A stretch of 64,000 bases of DNA from Microbacterium sp. LWO12-1.2 (GTDB lineage: Bacteria; Actinomycetota; Actinomycetes; Actinomycetales; Microbacteriaceae), in contig NZ_JBEGII010000001.1 in assembly GCF_040675875.1 (NCBI RefSeq), positions 620,001 through 684,000 of the forward strand, in the 5' to 3' direction. Position numbers and translations under genes: made by a program. Each line of letters begins with the position of its first letter. Position 1 is the stretch's first letter. Below are positions 4,298 through 42,450 of the stretch, in pieces. The notes under the pieces were generated by a model. It searched no databases. It was not told the origin of the DNA and saw nothing but the letters and a program-made list of their open reading frames with translations.

Positions 4298-5368
4298 TCA
4301 CTCCCACGTGCCACCGTCGAGGAAACGGACCATGCGGGCCCGATGCGGCGCGAGGTCCAGTCCGTTCTCACGGATCCAGTCGTCGTCGTAGTAGGTGCGC
4401 ATGTATCTCGTGCCACTGTCGCAGATGAGGGTGACGACACTTCCGGCCTGCCCGGCTGCGCGCATTCGGGAGATGAGCTCGAAGGCGCCCCACAGATTCG
4501 TGCCGGTCGACCCGCCCGCCAGATGCAGGGTCCGCTCGTGAAGAAGATGCATCGCGGCAAGGGACGCGGCATCCGGGACGGCGATCATCTCGTCGATCAC
4601 CTGGGGCAGGAAGGACGCCTCCACGCGCGGTCGACCGATCCCCTCGATGCGCGATGACGCCCCGGTGACGTGGGAGGCATCGCCACTATGCCAGGAGGGA
4701 TAGAACGCGGACCCCTCGGGATCGACCACCGCGACTTGCGTCTCATGGCATTGGTAGCGCACGTATCGCCCGATGGTCGCAGATGTGCCACCGGTCCCGG
4801 CGCCGACCACGATCCAGGTCGGGATCGGATGCCGTTCGAGGGCGAGCTGGCGGAAGATGCTCTCCGCGATGTTGTTGTTCCCACGCCAATCCGTCGCGCG
4901 CTCGGCATAGCCGAACTGATCGAGGTAGTGGCCGCGCGACTCCGCCGCGATCCTCTCCGCTTCTGCGTACACCTGGAGGGGCTCATCGACGAAATGGCAG
5001 ACGCCGCCATGGAACTCGATGAGGTCCAGCTTCTCTCGACTCGTCGAGCGGGGGACGACGGTGATGAAGCGCAGCCCGAGCATTCTGGCGAAGTACGCCT
5101 CCGAGACTGCCGTCGAACCACTGGACGCCTCGACGAGCGTGGTGTCGGCGTCTATCATGCCGCCGACGAGGCCGTAGAGGATCAGGGAGCGGGCGAGTCG
5201 GTGCTTGAGCGAGCCCGTGGGATGTACCGACTCGTCCTTGAGGTAGAGGTCGATGCCCCACTCGGCAGGCAGAGGGAACGCATGCAGGTGCGTGTCGGCG
5301 CTGCGGTTGGCATCAGCGTCGAGCAGACCGATCGCGCGCGTGCGCCAGGATGCGTCGGTGTCTCTCAT
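4298..5368 (-). CDS. cds1: PLP-dependent L-cysteine desulfhydrase, Cds1-like
   Basis: A 356-residue fold-type II PLP enzyme of the cysteine synthase/cystathionine beta-synthase group. The PLP lysine lies in TGSLKHRL (K55), the substrate loop is [13 protein letters not shown], and a glycine-rich phosphate cup follows ([15 protein letters not shown]). The N-terminal [22 protein letters not shown], the [11 protein letters not shown] stretch and the length resemble mycobacterial Cds1, which degrades cysteine to H2S, pyruvate and ammonia. That assignment is from memory of the family. The start ATG 5368 overlaps the stop of the upstream gene by four bases (ATGA), so translation is coupled. As the last gene of a peptide-import operon it probably consumes imported cysteine. 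Confidence 0.75.
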
Positions 5369-6447
5369 CCGTGCCCGCTCACCGCAGGCAGGAAGATCAC
5401 TCCGCGGTAGCCATCCGGCCCCCATCGCACGAGGTCATCGAGATCGTCGGGGCGGACGGGCAGTTCGTGGGTGTCGACCCATGTCTCTCCGGCATCCACG
5501 CTGATCCACGGGTCCTCGACCACGACGGAACCGCCGACGACGGAATGCGCCAGAATCCAGTGCGGCCCCGCCTCCCCATGCATCGGCGCCTCATCGATGA
5601 GCAGCAGCGCACGCTCGCCGTTCCCGACACGCGTGACGATCTCGGAGACCGTGACCCGATCGCGGCGCACCCCGATGCCCCGAGCAGTCGCCTGCCGCAA
5701 GGAATCGGCCTGCAGCTCCTCGCGGAACGAGCGGTCGAAGCCGGTGAAGCCTTCCAGCAGCGCCGGCCCGTCGAGGTCGAGAGCCACTTCGACCGGGGTG
5801 TGCGCGAGATGATCGTGCACCGCCACCGCGAGCCCGATCGGTTCACAGGCCGGGTAGTTGCTCGCACGTCGCCAGAAGTCGATCTCGAGCTCGCGGTCGG
5901 ACTCGTCGCCGTGGAACCCGCCGCCCGCAGTGCCCTCCGATGCCATCAATGCGGCGACCGCGCCGCAGGTGAAGAGCGTGGTCTGCGCGTAGTATCCCGG
6001 CTCCTCGTGGTGTGAGGCCGCGAGCCAGAGGACGTAGCCATCAACCTGCTCGGTGCCCACCGCGGCCCACGGACGCCGCATGGCTTCGAACCCCCGGTCC
6101 GAGAGGAACGCGGGCGCTGATGCGCCGCCCGCGATCTCCCACTTGATGGCGACCGCACCGTTCCTGCGGGCGTCGTCCACCACCGCATCGAGCACGGCGG
6201 CGGCAGCGAACTCCTCAGTCCACCACAGGTCCACGATCTTCCTCGCCGACGTTGCCGGGCGGCCGCTCGTCAGCGCTGCGGCGATCAGCTCTCCGCCGGA
6301 GTCCCGGACGGCGTGGACCACCGGGTGGTAGCCGATCCGGGGGAGGCGCCAACGTTCGAGCCGCGCGGGTGCGGCGCCGAGCGCCTCGATCTCATCTGCG
6401 ACCCGCAGCGGCGACGCCCCCGTCTCGATCGTATGTGCGGTACGCAT
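5365..6447 (-). CDS. GNAT-like domain fused to a C39-peptidase-like domain
   Basis: A 360-residue two-part protein. Residues 1-140 look like a GNAT acetyltransferase half, with a helix around residues 78-95 and the terminal [14 protein letters not shown] motif; I do not see a clear acetyl-CoA RxxGxG/A loop. Residues 148-360 resemble the C39-like cysteine peptidase family with DUF3335-type features: [11 protein letters not shown] (candidate nucleophile C161), [19 protein letters not shown], and [10 protein letters not shown] followed by VVEDPW (candidate H296 or H301, and D312). No secretion signal is visible, so it is likely cytosolic. It lies one base downstream of the ABC ATPase gene and overlaps the desulfhydrase. 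It may hydrolyse imported peptides or amides; this is inference. Confidence 0.6.
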
Positions 6448-6448
6448 C

Positions 6449-8026
6449 TCAGTCCTCTCCAGCGATCTCCGAGGCGGAGATCTGGTTCTCGCGGCGCCCG
6501 GCGGCGACCAGCATTGCGGTGTATTCGTGGCGTGGGTGCTCCAACACCTGTGCGCACGCGCCAGACTCGACGACCCGGCCGTTCCAGAGCACGGTCACCT
6601 GATCGGCCAGCATCCTCACGACGGCGAGGTCGTGTGAGATGAACAGGATGGCGATCCCGAGTTCTTCGCGGAGGCGACGCAGCAGGCTCAGGATCTGCGC
6701 CTGAACCGACACGTCCAGGGCCGACACCGATTCGTCGCAGATGAGCAGACGGGGATGCGTCGCGAGTGCGCGCGCGATCGCGACTCGCTGACGCTGACCG
6801 CCGGACAGCTCGGCGGGGCGCTTGCGTTCGAACTCGTCCGGAAGATTGACCATCGAGAGCAGATCGGCCAGATCCGATGTTGGTCGGCCCGCCACGGCGA
6901 GTGCTTCGCGGAGGATGGCGCCCACGGACATCATGGGATTGAGCGACGAGTAAGGATCCTGGAAGACGATCTGCATCTGAGCGGGCGTGCGGGACTTCCG
7001 GCCGGGGGCGAGCGCTGCACTGTCGAATCGGATCTCGCCCGCGTCCTCGTGCTCCAACCCCGCGATGCACCGGGCGAACGTGGACTTGCCTGAACCCGAC
7101 TCACCCACGAGGCCGACGATCTGTCCGGGAGCGATGTCGACCGAAACGCCATCCAGCACCGTCCTCTCACCGAACTGCTTGGTGACCCGGGTCGCCGAAA
7201 GCAGCGGCACATCGCCGACCGCACGAGGTGCCGCCTCCGACACTGCCGGGGCCGGGGCGAGCGTGGGATCCGCGTCGAGCAGCGCACGCGTATAGGGGTG
7301 CGTGGGGGTGCTGAGCACATCACCGGTAGCGCCGCGCTCCACGACCTCGCCGTGTCGCATCACGAGCACATCGTCGGCACGGCCGCGGACCAGCCCCAGG
7401 TCATGGGAGATCAGGATGACGCACAGATTCCTGGCATGTTGAATCGCGCGCAACAGGTCGAGGATCTCCGCCTGATTCGACGCGTCGAGGGCTGTCGTGG
7501 GCTCGTCCGCGATGATCAGCTGCGGATCGGCGGCGAGGGCAGCGGCGATCGCGACCCGCTGCCTCATCCCGCCTGACAGCTGATGGGGATACGACCGGGC
7601 CACGCGCGCGGGGAGTCTCACCTCGGCGAGGCGCTCCTCGATCCTGCGCTCACGCTCGGCTCGTGCCAGTCGTCGGTCGGAGGCCGCATCGAGCGTCCAG
7701 CCGATCTGCTCTCCGCAGCGGTGGACGGGGGAGAGGCTGGTGAACGGGTCTTGGAGAAGCAGGGTCACCGTGGAGCCGCGCACCGTCCGCCAGATTGTCT
7801 GGGCAGCGTCGAGGTCGACGTCGGTGGCGTCCACCCGGACTGAGCCCTCGGCTCGGAAGCCACGCGGAAGCAGCCCCACGAGCGCTTTCGCGGTCAGCGT
7901 CTTGCCCGACCCCGACTCGCCGATGATCGCCAGAGTGCGACCGGGCTCGATGTGCACGTCGAGCGGGTGCACGACTGTTCCCTCTCGACCGCTCACGGTC
8001 AGTCCGCTGATGTCGACACCGTTCAC
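6449..8026 (-). CDS. Dipeptide/oligopeptide ABC transporter ATPase, two fused nucleotide-binding domains
   Basis: A 525-residue protein joining two complete ATPase domains, corresponding to separate DppD and DppF subunits. Domain 1 has Walker A GESGSGKTLTAKAL, signature LSGGMRQRVAIA and Walker B LIIADEPTTAL. Domain 2 has GESGSGKSTFARC, LSGGQRQRVAIA and LLICDESVSALD. Each domain carries an Asp-rich D-loop and switch His (LISHDLGLV, FISHDLAVV). It energises the two permeases encoded just upstream. The GTG start at 8026 overlaps the upstream permease stop by four bases (GTGA). Substrate class is inferred from family only; the operon context suggests small or thiol-containing peptides. Confidence 0.9.
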   Translation of the reverse strand: MNGVDISGLTVSGREGTVVHPLDVHIEPGRTLAIIGESGSGKTLTAKALVGLLPRGFRAEGSVRVDATDVDLDAAQTIWRTVRGSTVTLLLQDPFTSLSPVHRCGEQIGWTLDAASDRRLARAERERRIEERLAEVRLPARVARSYPHQLSGGMRQRVAIAAALAADPQLIIADEPTTALDASNQAEILDLLRAIQHARNLCVILISHDLGLVRGRADDVLVMRHGEVVERGATGDVLSTPTHPYTRALLDADPTLAPAPAVSEAAPRAVGDVPLLSATRVTKQFGERTVLDGVSVDIAPGQIVGLVGESGSGKSTFARCIAGLEHEDAGEIRFDSAALAPGRKSRTPAQMQIVFQDPYSSLNPMMSVGAILREALAVAGRPTSDLADLLSMVNLPDEFERKRPAELSGGQRQRVAIARALATHPRLLICDESVSALDVSVQAQILSLLRRLREELGIAILFISHDLAVVRMLADQVTVLWNGRVVESGACAQVLEHPRHEYTAMLVAAGRRENQISASEIAGED

Positions 8027-8880
8027 AGCACTTGTCCGATCTGCGAGAGACGCTGGCCTGCCCAGTCGCCGACGAGGTTGACCGCGGAAGCGACCAGGAT
8101 GATCAGCGCGGCCGGGACGATGACCGCGGCAGGATTGTCGAACATGATCGTCCGGTTGTCGGTGAGCTGGCGCCCCCAGTCGGCGGTACCCGGTGGCACA
8201 CCGACGCCGAGGAAGGACAGAGAGGAGAACGCCACCAGGGCGAACGCGATGTTGAGCATGACGTTCGTGATGACGAGTGTGGAGACGTTCGGGAGGATGT
8301 GGCGGAACATGACGCGCCAGCGCGACAGGGAGAGCATCCGTGCCGCTTCGATGTAGGGCCGTGCGCTCTGCTCAAGAACACCCGCACGAACGATCCGGAT
8401 GTCGGAGGGCGAGAACAGGATGATCAACAGGACGACGGTCACTCCGTAGCCACCGCCGAATACGCCGGAGACGACGATCGCGGCGAGCAGGACCGGCAGC
8501 GCGAGCAGCAGGTCGGTCCAACGGCTCACGACGATGTCGAGCCACCCGCGTTCGTAGCCGGCGAGCGTACCGAGGAACACACCGAGGAGCATGGAGCCGA
8601 TGGCGACGCAGACGGGACCGACCAGGGCGGATGCCGCGCCGGCGACCGTCATGGCCCACACATCGCGCCCCAGCTCATCGGTGCCGAGAGGGTGGCCGGG
8701 CGATCCAGCCGGCATCAGACCGGAGAGGATGTCCTGTCGCATCGCGTCGGGATACACGAGATTGCCGAAGAGAACGGCGAGCACCGTGATCCCGAGGATG
8801 GCGAAGGCGACGACGACCGTCACCGGCAGCCGCTGACGCGTGCGCCGAGGCTGGCTGATCAGAGTGATTGCGGCGGTCAT
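8023..8880 (-). CDS. Peptide-type ABC transporter permease, DppC-like
   Basis: A 285-residue inner-membrane permease. It has an N-terminal cytosolic tail, one membrane helix (VVAFAILGITVLAVLFGNLV), the DppC-type periplasmic signature HPLGTDELGRDVWAM, and about five further helices. The cytosolic coupling (EAA) loop is EAARMLSLSRWRVMFRHILPN. The start ATG 8880 overlaps the stop of the partner permease by four bases. A longer in-frame extension upstream runs antisense-like through the partner gene and is rejected. It pairs with the 8877-9872 product to form the pore. Confidence 0.88.
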   Translation of the reverse strand: MTAAITLISQPRRTRQRLPVTVVVAFAILGITVLAVLFGNLVYPDAMRQDILSGLMPAGSPGHPLGTDELGRDVWAMTVAGAASALVGPVCVAIGSMLLGVFLGTLAGYERGWLDIVVSRWTDLLLALPVLLAAIVVSGVFGGGYGVTVVLLIILFSPSDIRIVRAGVLEQSARPYIEAARMLSLSRWRVMFRHILPNVSTLVITNVMLNIAFALVAFSSLSFLGVGVPPGTADWGRQLTDNRTIMFDNPAAVIVPAALIILVASAVNLVGDWAGQRLSQIGQVL

Positions 8881-9872
8881 GCGGTCCTCCCGGTGCGGCG
8901 CAGGCGCGGATCCAACAGCACGTATGCGAGATCGGCGAGGAGGGCGATGACCGCGATGACGACAGCGACGAGAAGCGTGAGCGACTGGACGACGGCGATG
9001 TCCTTGAAGAGGACGGAGTCCTGCAGCAGCGTGCCCACCCCTGGCAGGGCGTAAGTGGTCTCCGCGAGGACAGTGCCGCCGACGAGGAAGGTCAGGACGA
9101 GGCTTGCCCCCGTGACGATCGGGATCGCCGCATTGCGGAGAGCGATGAGGCGCACGCGCGGCTCGGAGATGCCCCGCGCGCGGGCGGAGGTGACGTAGTC
9201 GGTCTCGAGCTCGCGCAGCATAGCGGCACGGGTGAGCTTCACGATGATCGCGCCGAGCCCGAGGGCCAATGTGACGGCCGGGAGGATGAGATGCCAGAGC
9301 GTGTCGAGCCCCCCGGAGCCTGCGCCGTACACGGGGAAGATCCGCAGGTAGTAGGCGAAGACGTAGAGGAGCAGGAGCCCGACCGCGAAGGTCGGAGCGC
9401 TGAGCCCGATCACGGCGAGGCTGCTGGCCGTCCGATCCACCCATCCGCCCGCATGCACGGCGCTCTGCACGCCGAGCGGCACGGCGACCACCAGCGCGAG
9501 GGCGAACGCGAGCCCGCACAGCGTGATCGTGAGGCCTGTCCGCTGCGCGATCGCGTCAGCGACGGGAACCTGGAGCCGGATCGACTGTCCGAGATCGCCG
9601 GTGACGAACCCGCCGAGCCACTTCAGGTACTGGAGCCACAGCGGATCGTCGAGGTTGTACTGGGCGCGGATCGCCGCGACCGCGTCGGGAGAGGCCGGCC
9701 GGTTGCCCAACAGGTTCTTCACGATGTCGCCGGGAGCGAGATGCACCAGTGAGAACACGATCATCGACAGGAGAAGAAGTACCGTGAGCGTGCCGAGCAC
9801 GCGCAGCGCGACCATCCGGCCGAGAGGCCGGTAGCGGGCTGCGCGCGCTCGGACGGGGAGCGGTGTCGTCAC
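8877..9872 (-). CDS. Peptide-type ABC transporter permease, DppB-like
   Basis: A 331-residue permease with the DppB/OppB pattern: a first helix near residues 20-40 (LTVLLLLSMIVFSLVHLAPGD), the AIRAQYNLDDPLWLQYLKWL segment, and a coupling loop DYVTSARARGISEPRVRLIALRNA split here by reading across to the following helices. The end (LLADLAYVLLDPRLRRTG) is characteristic of the family. GTG 9872 is chosen because it forms a GTGA overlap with the binding-protein stop; longer upstream extensions lie inside that gene. It encodes one half of the transmembrane pore of the operon. Confidence 0.88.
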   Translation of the reverse strand: MTTPLPVRARAARYRPLGRMVALRVLGTLTVLLLLSMIVFSLVHLAPGDIVKNLLGNRPASPDAVAAIRAQYNLDDPLWLQYLKWLGGFVTGDLGQSIRLQVPVADAIAQRTGLTITLCGLAFALALVVAVPLGVQSAVHAGGWVDRTASSLAVIGLSAPTFAVGLLLLYVFAYYLRIFPVYGAGSGGLDTLWHLILPAVTLALGLGAIIVKLTRAAMLRELETDYVTSARARGISEPRVRLIALRNAAIPIVTGASLVLTFLVGGTVLAETTYALPGVGTLLQDSVLFKDIAVVQSLTLLVAVVIAVIALLADLAYVLLDPRLRRTGRTA

Positions 9873-11479
9873 TGCCCGGCCCGGTACAGCTGGGTCGGCC
9901 AGGACGAGATGAAGGCGAACGAGCTGTAGTCCTTCATCCCGAGATCCTTCGCGAACGCCGTGGCGGACTGCCCCCACCACAGCGGAACATTGATGACGGC
10001 CTCCGCCTGCAGGGTCTCCGCCTGCACGAGAAGGTCCACCCGCGCGGCGGGGTCCGACTCGGCTCCGGCCTGTGACAGCAGATCGACCACTTCAGGATCG
10101 TTGAAGGCCGCCGGGTTGCCGGTTCCGAGGAGGTAGGTCGGAATCTCCGCCGGGTCGCCGAGGGTCGAGAAGTACCACATCAGGTTGACGCCGTGATCAG
10201 AGGAGGCGTCGAGGCTCGCGAGCCACTCTTCGATGGGTACCTCGCGGACGTTGAGCGTGACACCGATCTCGGCGAGGTTCTGAGCGAGCGCCTGGGCGGC
10301 GGTGCCCAGCTGCGGGCCGGTGTTCGGCGTGAGGATCTCCGCCTCGAATCCGTCCGGCATGGACGATTCCGCGAGCGCCGCACGGGCCGCATCCAAATCG
10401 AACTCCCACTGCGGGATGCCTGAGAGGACGTCGCGTGCCTCCTCGGCGTCATAGACCTTGCCGAGCGACTCCGGCGTCATGATCGCGGTCGCTGCTTCCC
10501 CGTGTCCTCGCAGCAGCTTCTCGACATAGGCGTCTCGGTCGACCGCGTGGGCGAACGCTTCGCGAACCTTCGGGTCATCGAAGGGCGCGACGGTGGTGTT
10601 GAAGTACAGACCCACGTAGGAGAGGTCGTTGACGTAGTCCACGCGCATCGGGTCGATCTTCTCCCACTGCTGCGACTGGGCGAGGGGCACGTTGAACGCG
10701 ACGTCCACGTCGCCCGACTGCGCGGCGAGGAGTCGGGTCGACTCGTCCGGTACGAAGTTCACGGTGATCGCCTTGACTTTCGGCAACTCGCCCCACCACG
10801 TGTCGACGCGCTCGAAGGTGACGTGCGAATCGGGGGCGAACTCCGTGACCTCATAGGGCCCTGTCCCGAGGAGCAATGCGTCGGGGGTGCCGACCTTGCC
10901 GCCGTGCTCCTCCCAGAACGCCTTCGAGGTGATGAAAGCCGCGCCGCCGCTGCTCATGTTCGCGGCGAAAGCGGCATCGGGCTCGACGAGAGTGATCGTG
11001 ACCTCGGCTTCACCTGTCTTCTCGATCGCGTCCACGTTCGTGAGGTAGTACGCGAGGCCGGGGGAGGCGGTCTCGTCTCGCGCCTGCTCGAGGCTGAACA
11101 CGACGTCGTCGGCTGTGACGGGGGTGCCGTCTTGGAAGGTCGCGTCATCGCGAAGTTCGTACACGTACGTGATGTCGTCGGTCTGCTCCCACGACTCGGC
11201 CAGTCCGGGCTGGATGCGACCTTGTGCATCGATCGACACGAGTCCCTCCTGCGCGATCGAGGCGATGTAGTAGTTCAGGATGCCGGCTTCTTGACCGACG
11301 TAGAGGCTGGACAGCGAACCGGGAAGGGCGACGGTGATGTGGTCGATCTCCGCCCCGGTGTCGGGTCCGGTGCTTGTTGCGCCGTCGGGTGTCGAACTCG
11401 AACATGCGACCAGCATCAGGGCGCCCGCTGTGGCGACGGTTGTCGCCTTCGCCAGGCGAGCAGTGGAGGGAAACGGCAT
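9869..11479 (-). CDS. Peptide-type ABC transporter substrate-binding lipoprotein
   Basis: A 536-residue family-5 solute-binding protein. Its signal peptide ends in the lipobox LMLVAC (Cys near residue 26), so it is tethered to the membrane. The SBP_bac_5 fold is seen in ASIAQEGLVSIDAQGRIQPG, ESWEQTDDITYVYELRDDA, FQDGTPVTADDVVFSLEQAR and the later VREAFAHAVDRDAY. ATG 11479 is chosen because GAGGAG lies about 10 bases upstream and it begins a normal lipoprotein signal. Unusually, the frame continues upstream without any stop through the whole LysR gene, so the binding protein could also be made as the C-terminal part of a LysR fusion. Confidence 0.88.
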   Translation of the reverse strand: MPFPSTARLAKATTVATAGALMLVACSSSTPDGATSTGPDTGAEIDHITVALPGSLSSLYVGQEAGILNYYIASIAQEGLVSIDAQGRIQPGLAESWEQTDDITYVYELRDDATFQDGTPVTADDVVFSLEQARDETASPGLAYYLTNVDAIEKTGEAEVTITLVEPDAAFAANMSSGGAAFITSKAFWEEHGGKVGTPDALLLGTGPYEVTEFAPDSHVTFERVDTWWGELPKVKAITVNFVPDESTRLLAAQSGDVDVAFNVPLAQSQQWEKIDPMRVDYVNDLSYVGLYFNTTVAPFDDPKVREAFAHAVDRDAYVEKLLRGHGEAATAIMTPESLGKVYDAEEARDVLSGIPQWEFDLDAARAALAESSMPDGFEAEILTPNTGPQLGTAAQALAQNLAEIGVTLNVREVPIEEWLASLDASSDHGVNLMWYFSTLGDPAEIPTYLLGTGNPAAFNDPEVVDLLSQAGAESDPAARVDLLVQAETLQAEAVINVPLWWGQSATAFAKDLGMKDYSSFAFISSWPTQLYRAGQ

Positions 11480-12520
11480 GGTGGAACTCTCCTCGGGTGT
11501 CGGTGATGCGGTTAGGAAACGGGCGCGGTGGTTCTGCGAACGTCGACGCGATTCCAGAATCGCGTCGATCTCCGCAGGGCTCGGGCGATGGGAGGCCAGG
11601 GTGCGGACGGCCGCCGCCACGGCGGGGATGGCGGCGGCCTCGATGAGGGTGGTCGCGGTGGTGCGCCGGGTGAATGAGGGCAGAACGCCGAGCGCACGGA
11701 CGCCGGCGGGCAGAGACGTCCCGGCCAGATCCGACTCGGAGACGAACGCGACACCCACGCCGTGAGCGGCGAAGGCGATCGCGGCATCAGGGCGGCTGAC
11801 CGTGATGTCATCGGAGAGCGCGGCTCGCCCGCTGGCGGCGGCGACGGTCCCGCTGCAGGTTCCCGGTCCGACGATCCACGGGAGGACGCTGAGGGCGCGT
11901 GCGTTGATGCGTCCGCCTGCGGCATCGACGTCTGCCGTGGTGAGAGCGACGATCTCCTCGGCGAAGAGGAAGGTGTCACGAAGCCCGCTGCGCCGAGTTC
12001 TCTGGCGTCGATCTCCGGATGCCGCGATGTCGGATGTCACGGCGATGTCGGCACGTCCAGCGCGTACGAGCGCGAGTGCATCGGCACTGTCGGTTGCTTC
12101 ATGGACCGACGTGTCGACATCGGGAATCTCGATCGCAAGGCGCGCGAGAGCGGGGGCGATGACCTGTGCCAGGCACTCTGCCGTCGCGGCGAAGCGGACG
12201 ACGCCCACGCGATGCCCCAAGACTCGCGCGAGCTCGGTAGCGGCGGCGGTCAGGCTCGCATCGATTCGCGGAGCGTGTTCGACCAGCAACGCACCGACGG
12301 GTGTGAGCGTGGCGGCGCGAGCGGTGCGGACGACGAGTGCGGCACCGAGGCGGGCCTCAAGGCGTTGGACGTGCTGTGTGATCGTCGGCTGAGTGAATCC
12401 GAGTGATCGTGCCGCTGCACTGATGGACCCTGCCTGATCGATGGCCACCAGGATGCGCAGCGAATGGACGTCGAGCGCGCGGGTCAGAGCATCGACATCT
12501 GGTGCGGAACTGTTATCCAT
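11480..12520 (-). CDS. LysR-family transcriptional regulator lacking its own stop codon
   Basis: The first 300 or so residues form a LysR regulator: winged helix HSLRILVAIDQAGSISAAAR followed by GFTQPTITQHVQRLEARLG, then a type 2 periplasmic-binding effector domain (VVRFAATAECLAQVIAPALA; WIVGPGTCSGTVAAASGRA). Codons 1-347 run straight into the binding-protein ATG with no stop. A TAA lies one frame off at 11512-11514, about where a LysR protein would end, so a one-base indel may have removed the natural stop, or the fusion is real. LysR proteins usually control the neighbouring operon; here it is co-directional with the transporter genes. A TTG, GTG or other start near 12520 cannot be excluded. 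Confidence 0.75.
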
Positions 12521-12604
12521 AGGTGGATGCTATTCATTTCCATGTTTCGATGGTGTAACAAAATATGTAAGATCACGAAAAGAGAGAAATGACAGGGGAA
12601 GCGC

Positions 12605-40776: not shown

Positions 40777-42450
40777 GTGAAGCGCAACAAGATCGCCCTT
40801 GCGGGCACCGCGCTGTTCGCGATCGGCGCCCTGGCGCTCGCGGGCTGCGCGAGTGGTGGCGGAAACGACTCGGGAGACAACGGCGCAGGGTCGGCCGACC
40901 CGGATGCCATCATCACCACGAACGGCTCCGAGCCGGAGAACCCGCTGATCCCGACCAACACCAACGAGGTCGGCGGCGGAAAGATCCTCGACGAGATCTT
41001 CGCGGGTCTCATCTACTACGACGCCGACGGCAAGCCGGTGAACGACGTCGCCGAGGAGATCACCACCGAGGACCCGCAGCACCTCACGGTCAAGATCAAG
41101 GAAGGCCTGAAGTTCACCAACGGTGAGGAGATCACCGCCGACAACTTCATCAAGGCGTGGAACTACGGGGCACAGGCCGAGAACGCCCAGCTCTCCGGCT
41201 ACTTCTTCGAGGACATCGAGGGCTTCATCAATGACCCGGGCGACCCGAACAACCCCGATGACGACATCTTCGGCGCACAGGGCGACCTCGCCGGCCTGAA
41301 GCAGGTCGACGACTACACCTTCACGATCGAGCTCAACAAGCCGGCCTCCGACTTCGCTCTGCGTCTCGGCTACTCGGCGTTCTACCCGCTCCCTGACGTC
41401 GCGTTCGAGGACATCGACGCGTTCGGTCAGAACCCGATCGGCAACGGCCCGTACAAGATCGATGGCGACGACGCGTGGCAGCACGACGTGCAGATCGACC
41501 TCGTGCGCAACGACGACTACGAAGGCGGACGCAAGGCGGCCAACGGCGGTCTGTCGATCATCTTCTACGCCACGCAGGAGGCGGCGTACGCCGACCTGCT
41601 GTCGAACGAGGTCGACGTCATCGACGCGATCCCGACCAACTCGCTCCAGGTCTTCACCGATGAGCTCGGCGACCGTGCTGTGAACCAGCCCTCCGCCGTG
41701 TTCCAGTCCTTCACGATCGGACAGTTCCTCCCGCACTTCAGCGGCGAAGAGGGCCAGCTGCGCCGTCAGGCGCTGTCGATGGCGATCAACCGTGAAGAGA
41801 TCACCGAGACGATCTTCTCGGGCACCCGTACCCCGGCAGCTGACTTCACGTCCCCGGTGATCGACGGCTGGTCCGACTCGGTTCCCGGCAGCGAGGTCCT
41901 CGAGTACAACCCCGACGAGGCGAAGAAGCTGTGGGCCGAGGCCGACGCCATCTCGCCGTGGGACGGCGATTTCAAGATCGCGTACAACGCCGATGGTGGA
42001 CACGACGCCTGGGTCGATGCAGTGAGCAACAGCATCAAGAACACGCTGGGCATCGAAGCTTCCGGTGACCCGTACCCGACCTTCCAGGACCTTCGCACGA
42101 AGATCAACGACCGCACGATCACGACCGCTGCGCGTTCGGGATGGCAGGCGGACTACCCGGGTCTGTACAACTTCCTCGGCCCGCTCTACGCGACGGGTGC
42201 CGGATCCAACGACGGTGACTACTCGAACCCCGAGTTCGACGACCTCATCAAGGCCGGTATCAGCAACCCTGACCCGGCCGCGCAGATCGAGGACTTCACC
42301 AAGGCGCAGGAGGTCCTGTTCCAGGATCTGCCCGCGATCCCGCTGTGGTACTCCAACGTCACCGGTGGCTTCGGTGAGAGCGTCGACAACGTCACGTTCG
42401 GCTGGAACTCCGTGCCGCTCTACTACGAGATCACGAAGGCCGGCGAGTAA
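40777..42450 (+). CDS. Oligopeptide ABC transporter substrate-binding lipoprotein
   Basis: A 557-residue family-5 binding protein of the OppA type. The signal peptide (KRNKIALAGTALFAIGALAL) ends at lipobox LAGCA. Mature landmarks are GGGKILDEIFAGLIYYDADG, LKFTNGEEITADNFIKAWNY, GNGPYKIDGDDAWQHD and LRRQALSMAINREEITETIF. The GTG at 40777 is chosen because AGGAGG lies eight bases upstream and a lipoprotein signal begins there. It feeds peptides to the permeases encoded downstream. It is highly acidic, as expected of an exported binding protein. Confidence 0.92.
   Translation: MKRNKIALAGTALFAIGALALAGCASGGGNDSGDNGAGSADPDAIITTNGSEPENPLIPTNTNEVGGGKILDEIFAGLIYYDADGKPVNDVAEEITTEDPQHLTVKIKEGLKFTNGEEITADNFIKAWNYGAQAENAQLSGYFFEDIEGFINDPGDPNNPDDDIFGAQGDLAGLKQVDDYTFTIELNKPASDFALRLGYSAFYPLPDVAFEDIDAFGQNPIGNGPYKIDGDDAWQHDVQIDLVRNDDYEGGRKAANGGLSIIFYATQEAAYADLLSNEVDVIDAIPTNSLQVFTDELGDRAVNQPSAVFQSFTIGQFLPHFSGEEGQLRRQALSMAINREEITETIFSGTRTPAADFTSPVIDGWSDSVPGSEVLEYNPDEAKKLWAEADAISPWDGDFKIAYNADGGHDAWVDAVSNSIKNTLGIEASGDPYPTFQDLRTKINDRTITTAARSGWQADYPGLYNFLGPLYATGAGSNDGDYSNPEFDDLIKAGISNPDPAAQIEDFTKAQEVLFQDLPAIPLWYSNVTGGFGESVDNVTFGWNSVPLYYEITKAGE

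Follow-up and report, generated by a model that had tools for sequence, protein, structure and literature searches.

A LysR-type regulator read in frame into the lipoprotein receptor of a Microbacterium importer: a gene that probably yields two products

LysR-type regulators, a very large bacterial family, are generally regarded as soluble proteins of the cytosol. A stretch of 64,000 nucleotides from Microbacterium sp. LWO12-1.2 (assembly GCF_040675875.1, contig NZ_JBEGII010000001.1, positions 620,001 to 684,000; below, the window) raises the question of what such a regulator does when its reading frame continues into the secreted binding protein of a transporter. The frame in question, 12520..9869 on the minus strand, encodes 883 residues, with a LysR part (residues 1-335) and a solute-binding protein (SBP, residues 348-883) and no stop codon between them. 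It heads six tightly packed open frames at 12520..4298, the others encoding two permeases, a fused ATPase, a protein with GNAT and C39-like parts (the GNAT-C39 protein) and a Cds1-like enzyme. The initial annotation had counted seven genes, with LysR and the binding protein as separate members, a count that the single frame corrects to six. On balance, we favour the view that these frames form a regulated importer-plus-hydrolase operon, the first gene of which would encode two things in one frame. The parts of this gene are as follows:

9869..12520, minus strand: fused frame of LysR and SBP_bac_5 lipoprotein, 883 residues (open frame and Pfam domains)
11516..12520, minus strand: LysR part, with HTH_1 at residues 20-76, LysR_substrate at 104-310 and a basic tail to F335 (Pfam, alignment and model)
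11480..11515, minus strand: variable in-frame linker, residues 336-347 (frame and homologue alignment)
11489..11494, minus strand: GAGGAG Shine-Dalgarno sequence within the frame (sequence)
11405..11479, minus strand: internal ATG (M348) and lipoprotein signal peptide, with the lipobox preceding Cys373 (homologue alignment)
9869..11479, minus strand: binding protein read from the internal start, 536 residues, SBP_bac_5 (Pfam and structural matches)

The LysR part scores above the Pfam cut-offs for the helix-turn-helix (HTH) domain HTH_1 (62.9 bits) and for the effector domain (53.6 bits), while an SBP_bac_5 domain (Pfam, 279 bits) together with a signal peptide bearing a lipobox cysteine identifies the second half as an SBP_bac_5 lipoprotein. 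Relatives were gathered through the GNAT-C39 gene rather than through the fusion, and 80 loci of 169 were kept. LysR and SBP hits, both above 180 bits, lie on one strand in 36 of these relatives; the junction is in frame and free of stop codons in 35 of them, and in the 36th (L023, Demequina sediminis, where a frame break falls inside the LysR part of an otherwise fused frame) the junction is open as well. Neither the window nor any of the 36 relatives has a free-standing LysR of about 300 residues, with a stop codon of its own before the SBP. The frame is also fused at the nearest locus (L145, 72% identity in the GNAT-C39 protein) among the 19 other members of the genus with a GNAT-C39 gene. 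Organisms represented include Microbacterium, Agromyces, Demequina, Salinibacterium, Homoserinimonas and Mycolicibacterium.

Of the 155 homologues retrieved by a protein search, the best 120 were examined, and 94 of these are at least 835 residues long. Across these 94 full-length homologues among the matches listed, the set used throughout below, mean identity to the window protein is 82% in the HTH domain, 51% in the effector domain, 37% in the linker and 80% in the SBP part. A lost stop codon or a sequencing error in a single genome, which would make the fusion an artefact and to which we give next to no probability, is refuted by the 35 of 36 separately sequenced loci with an in-frame, open junction and by the 94 database homologues. 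A Markov estimate over the 35 loci, which is descriptive only, takes related loci as independent and covers a spacer that in many loci includes part of the signal peptide, puts the mean chance of an open spacer at 0.66 per locus.

Two residues behind the junction, Met348 and the lipobox cysteine Cys373, are each invariant in 94 of 94 full-length homologues. The linker preceding Met348 occurs in 19 different lengths, from 11 to 54 residues, and a start codon is the best explanation for a methionine that stays invariant amid this freely varying stretch. The 36 fused rows compared (the window, L145 and 34 relatives; L019 and L042 are missing) include 26 in which a Shine-Dalgarno-like match (defined as AGGAG, GGAGG, GAGGA, GGAG or GAAGAA) lies ahead of it, and two further rows have GAAGAGAG at this place. 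Judging from these sequence features, separate synthesis of the binding protein is probable, whereas LysR can be made only joined to it: the LysR part has no stop codon, and therefore any translated LysR carries the binding protein behind it. The gene would then probably yield the binding protein as a lipoprotein and, as its second product, a LysR protein tethered via the signal segment of this lipoprotein.

The LysR part ends, before the linker, in a basic tail that is widely kept among the 94 homologues (R325 in 85, R326 in 81, R327 in 79, R332 in 91, R334 in 85 and F335 in 89). Basic residues before a hydrophobic segment favour the cytosolic side, according to the positive-inside rule, and this tail would favour an orientation with LysR inside and the binding protein outside. 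Both domains are well formed in the AlphaFold2 model of the fused protein (mean predicted local distance difference test, pLDDT, 81.9).

Upstream of the gene, 22 regions were aligned (the same rows were used for the scan of stop codons in the other frames, described below), and two features were marked in the window:

12545..12568, minus strand: conserved upstream block, ACATATTTTGTTACACCATCGAAA in the window, a candidate LysR-type site (alignment of 22 regions)
12527..12532, minus strand: conserved -10-like TAGCAT, 6 nucleotides before the ATG, a candidate leaderless start (upstream alignment)

ATAG(C/T) lies a few bases ahead of the LysR ATG in 21 of the 22 regions, the exception being L027. 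The block farther upstream, around ACATATTGTTACACCATCGAAA, is well kept and has diverged in six Demequina rows and in L027. We infer a leaderless, LysR-controlled start from this region.

In its boldest form, to which we give a probability clearly below even, the reading of these elements is that one gene with two starts would encode the receptor for transport and a LysR anchored in the membrane, with that receptor as its outside sensor. In the operon as we favour it, LysR would control transcription, which would begin at its ATG or close by. The full chain of LysR, signal segment and binding protein would come from a minority of ribosomes; most would initiate at the internal site and make an ordinary lipoprotein that feeds the DppBC-DppDF importer. 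In the full chain, the internal signal segment, coming after the arginine-rich tail, would insert with LysR inside and the binding protein outside, so tethering LysR at the importer, where it could sense the state of the binding protein directly or the imported ligand via its own effector domain. The GNAT-C39 protein would act on the imported compound by hydrolysing an amide or peptide bond, and the Cds1-like paralogue, joined to the operon in this strain, would probably degrade a cysteine-like product.

The same frame could be used in other ways. If signal peptidase II always cuts the fusion, the gene would encode a polyprotein giving LysR, free or with a leftover helix, and an ordinary lipoprotein; the join would fix their stoichiometry, the binding protein would send no signal to LysR, and intramembrane trimming would be possible. 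We regard this as somewhat unlikely: the lipobox cysteine present in all 94 homologues, the signal-peptide-like composition and the character of the SBP part, which is that of an ordinary family-5 binding protein, agree with it, but it leaves unexplained why in every fused lineage seen a LysR without its own stop codon reads via a variable linker into a secreted protein. A cytosolic sensor of the SgrR type, in which the full-length product would stay in the cytosol with the SBP part sensing the ligand, and the exported form would come only from the internal start, appears quite unlikely. Its model would be SgrR and the SgrR-like DsvR, in which, according to PMC13060122, an HTH at the N-terminus and an SBP_bac5 domain at the C-terminus share one chain; the window protein has the same order, with a DNA-binding domain ahead of a family-5 solute-binding domain in a single chain. 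The differences lie in the HTH, here a LysR HTH_1 accompanied by an effector domain, in the second start within the frame, in the signal peptide with lipobox that separates the two parts, and in the SBP part, which is the receptor of the adjacent importer. This signal peptide and its lipobox are complete in all 94 homologues, and the fused LysR already possesses an effector domain; both points speak against a cytosolic sensor. A search of the window protein against Pfam (E <= 0.01) reported only HTH_1, LysR_substrate and SBP_bac_5, and no SgrR-type HTH model. Programmed frameshifting as a way of ending LysR was rejected: in 22 loci, the first stops of the other frames fall from 1 to 2666 nucleotides past the conserved tail, and the lack of a common position argues against it, although seven Salinibacterium-type loci share an other-frame stop at 25 nucleotides and the window has one at 1 nucleotide, which counts against this rejection.

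Several observations weigh against a tethered LysR and against the operon as we read it. Signal peptidase II is expected to cut at Cys373 and thereby to separate the halves, and the long LysR extension might be passively tolerated. Residues 336-382 lie below pLDDT 50, including the low-confidence signal segment, and therefore the model neither supports nor opposes membrane insertion. In eight loci (Homoserinimonas and the seven of the Salinibacterium type) the sole candidate ahead of the internal start is a GAAAGG at a greater distance, and in the window a +1-frame stop, which is not shared, follows 1 nucleotide after the LysR tail. Related loci are not independent, and the counts overstate the number of independent events. 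The matches listed also comprise 26 shorter homologues, excluded from the set of 94, of which at least 12 are more than 70% identical across the SBP part; these may be unfused, truncated at contig ends or annotated from the internal start. The importer is present with no LysR joined in front in L053, L054, L055, L056, L143, L144 and L147, as well as in L160-L163, and therefore the fusion belongs to one clade. A search with the SBP part alone matched 4 of 393 other genomes of the class (394 drawn) at E <= 1e-110, all unfused, with frames of 567-604 residues; this draw hit none of the other known fused members and thus does not measure the spread of the fusion. Lastly, 27 of the 80 GNAT-C39 loci have a siderophore-type importer, and no single substrate class fits them all.

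XRE-cupin regulators adjoin unfused versions of the importer (checked with Pfam in L053 and L162, by eye in L054, L160, L161 and L163), which suggests that the LysR fusion replaced another regulator.

The proposed LysR with an outside receptor would be similar to the membrane-integrated one-component regulators of the CadC/ToxR type in having a cytosolic DNA-binding part, one membrane segment and an outside sensor. It would differ from them in belonging to the LysR type, in using a cleavable lipoprotein signal as the segment and in possessing a second start from which a free outside part is made. A table in PMC13293324 likewise lists regulator domains joined to solute-binding domains, LacI with Peripla_BP_3 and HTH_18 with a binding domain; of the 221 SBP_bac_5 proteins from siderophore clusters in this table, one has TAT_signal and none has LysR. 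A described LysR-SBP fusion was not found in the openly licensed literature searched. HTH-SBP_bac5 chains as such are already known (PMC13060122); what sets the present frame apart is the LysR type with an effector domain, the internal start, the lipoprotein signal (signal peptide and lipobox) in the middle of the chain and an SBP part that is the receptor of the importer. Annotation mostly hides the fusion. A name is carried by 44 of the 94 full-length homologues: 30 are called only 'ABC transporter substrate-binding protein', 7 are named as a ModE-like repressor and 4 (JGI) have both functions in the name.

The remaining genes of the operon follow on the same strand:

8877..9872, minus strand: DppB-type permease, GTG start overlapping the preceding stop codon (Pfam)
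8023..8880, minus strand: DppC-type permease (Pfam)
6449..8026, minus strand: fused DppD-DppF ATPase (Pfam and NCBIfam)
5365..6447, minus strand: protein with a GNAT fold (residues 1-144) and a papain-like PF11814 domain (152-353) (Pfam, alignment and structural matches)
4298..5368, minus strand: Cds1-like pyridoxal phosphate enzyme, a local addition to the operon (Pfam and NCBIfam, neighbourhoods and tree)

The domains assigned by Pfam and NCBIfam along the operon are the LysR HTH and effector domains, SBP_bac_5, two BPD_transp_1, tandem ABC_tran, PF11814 and PALP. Five junctions are as tight as initially described, with four-base overlaps between the binding protein and DppB (GTGA; stop ending at 9869, DppB at 9872..8877), DppB and DppC (ATGA, 8880/8877), DppC and the ATPase (GTGA, 8026/8023) and the GNAT-C39 and Cds1-like genes (ATGA, 5368/5365), and a gap of one base between the ATPase and GNAT-C39 genes (6449/6447); the further junction claimed for LysR does not exist.

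The GNAT-C39 protein matches PF11814 above the Pfam cut-off (148.1 bits), and in an alignment of 20 sequences C161 and H296 are invariant (20/20) and D312 nearly so; these three we take to be the candidate catalytic residues. The N-terminal part has a GNAT fold by its predicted model and structural matches, with no hit in Pfam (E <= 0.01) or NCBIfam (E <= 0.001), and the acetyl-CoA loop motif, presumably R/Q-x-x-G-x-G/A, was not seen by eye in the alignment. An acetyltransferase activity of the fused part is thus unsupported by the Pfam and NCBIfam searches, though the fold is that of GNAT. A search of the GNAT-C39 profile against PDB sequences found nothing up to E = 10. By structure, the C-terminal half matches a C39 double-glycine protease and the PeiR endoisopeptidase, among others; these matches sit among many GNAT rows, and families absent from the listing may still match. 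Members of PF11814 (DUF3335), the identical domain, are described as papain-like proteins often fused to GNAT domains in a classification published in JBC in 2023 (PMC10318531), the consulted portion of which mentions no partner importers for the family. Here, importer genes were found in 71 of the 80 loci, within flanks of up to 10 kb on each side: 41 of the orthologous Dpp kind, 3 of other Dpp kinds and 27 of the Fhu type. These classes include importer genes at any position in the fetched flanks, whether adjacent or not. The gene finder used in the analysis, a home-made GC-phase picker, merges some genes and mis-starts others. Because of this co-occurrence, which bears out the neighbourhood association initially expected for the C39-like gene, the GNAT-C39 protein is the partner of the importer. 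Two deeper importer operons have genes of the S9 prolyl-oligopeptidase type in or beside them (L162:12705-14525 and L163:8588-10516), and no GNAT-C39 gene was found in the stretches fetched for these two loci, the rest of their genomes not having been searched. An S9 peptidase in importer operons with no GNAT-C39 gene nearby supports the earlier proposal that the C39-like domain hydrolyses the imported compound, in the form of an amide or a peptide.

The Cds1-like gene behaves differently. Its product, a putative cysteine desulfhydrase, matches the mycobacterial L-cysteine desulfhydrase Cds1 (NCBIfam equivalog NF052478) over its full length with 589.3 bits, under the curated cut-off of 600, as does the other Cds1-like copy of the genome (589.4 bits, also under 600), which lies elsewhere and is 75% identical. 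Only 1 of the 80 GNAT-C39 loci (L055, flanks of up to 10 kb) has a Cds1-like gene, located beside a divergent LysR gene on the opposite side of the operon, and none lies within 1.5 kb of GNAT-C39 in the 19 other genus members with that gene. Cds1 was found in 152 of 366 genomes of the genus (E <= 1e-100) and is not enriched in those bearing the operon (6 of 20 with GNAT-C39 vs 146 of 346 without it); the position at the end of the operon occurs only in the window genome among the loci examined. In a tree of 40 rows, which include one distant outgroup, two rows of the same gene and only part of the copies found in the genus, none of the 39 other rows is closely related to the operon copy, the highest identity being 78%. 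A role of Cds1 as a core component of the operon is rejected by the neighbourhood counts, and the gene is a local addition. In L148 and L149 (genomes G233 and G187), a LysR gene diverges from a Cds1-like gene followed by an amidohydrolase gene (Pfam-checked in L148), with further genes of aldehyde-dehydrogenase, cupin, FAD-enzyme and ABC type by eye; no GNAT-C39 gene was seen in this catabolic cluster with Cds1.

The initial annotation had explained the operon by one pathway, in which thiol or gamma-glutamyl peptides would be hydrolysed by the C39-like domain and the cysteine then broken down by Cds1. The tight coupling of the genes, the Cds1-like gene beside LysR at the importer in L055 and the genes preceding the importer in L053 (Cryobacterium) speak for such a pathway; the last encode MsuE (257.0 bits, cut-off 212.5), a DmoA-type monooxygenase (337.3 bits, cut-off 279.7) and a flavin monooxygenase-like protein (113.2 bits, cut-off 412.9). 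Against it stand the independence of cds1 from the importer, an outcome that the initial annotation had named as refuting, its lack of enrichment and the isolated position of the operon copy among the copies in the tree, and we consider the pathway very unlikely. Substrates of the gamma-glutamyl or glutathione type gained no specific support. The broader sulfur theme survives in part, in the scattered signs from the window, L055 and L053, but these hints are few; uptake of organosulfur compounds by the importer is possible, as a lead only.

The binding protein itself points to no one ligand. Its best structural matches in the Foldseek listing include binders of agropinate, YliB (glutathione transport), and peptide and nickel binders, at 19-26% identity, and a substrate call from the closest solved proteins was abandoned, as different ligand classes match alike. 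Metal-chelator uptake, in which the importers would take in metallophores and the GNAT-C39 protein would open the chelator and free the metal, is unlikely: the FhuD- and FhuB-type genes at the 27 Fhu-type loci and the NikA-type models that are the best NCBIfam matches of the window binding protein, though far under their cut-offs, argue for it, and the agropinate, YliB and peptide binders among the top structural matches argue against it. In the Fhu-type loci, a chelator hydrolase is a possible role of the GNAT-C39 protein. These loci (L057-L063, L065-L071, L075, L077-L083, L086, L088-L090 and L093) are nearly all from Streptomyces, plus Rothia (L093), with the GNAT-C39 gene near the siderophore importer genes; in L089, which also has an AraC regulator and an ATPase, FhuB scores 900.3 bits (cut-off 849) and FhuD 104.5 (cut-off 252).

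L091, L064, L146 and L050 represent another kind of GNAT-C39 importer locus, in which the ATPases are split and amidohydrolase genes are present; the L091 binding protein has TIGR04028 (SBP_KPN_01854) as its best NCBIfam hit, under the cut-off. The window contains a second SBP_bac_5 gene at 41032-42207 on the plus strand, and a search of the 4.1 Mb genome at E <= 0.001 gave 25 SBP_bac_5 matches, of which 24 exceed the cut-off.

The link of the GNAT-C39 protein to three kinds of importer offers a biochemical entry point to a domain of unknown function. The conserved joining of a stop-less LysR to a secreted lipoprotein with its own start makes it testable whether a LysR regulator can be tethered to the membrane and read a transport receptor. 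If this is true, information on the substrate would pass straight from the importer to DNA.

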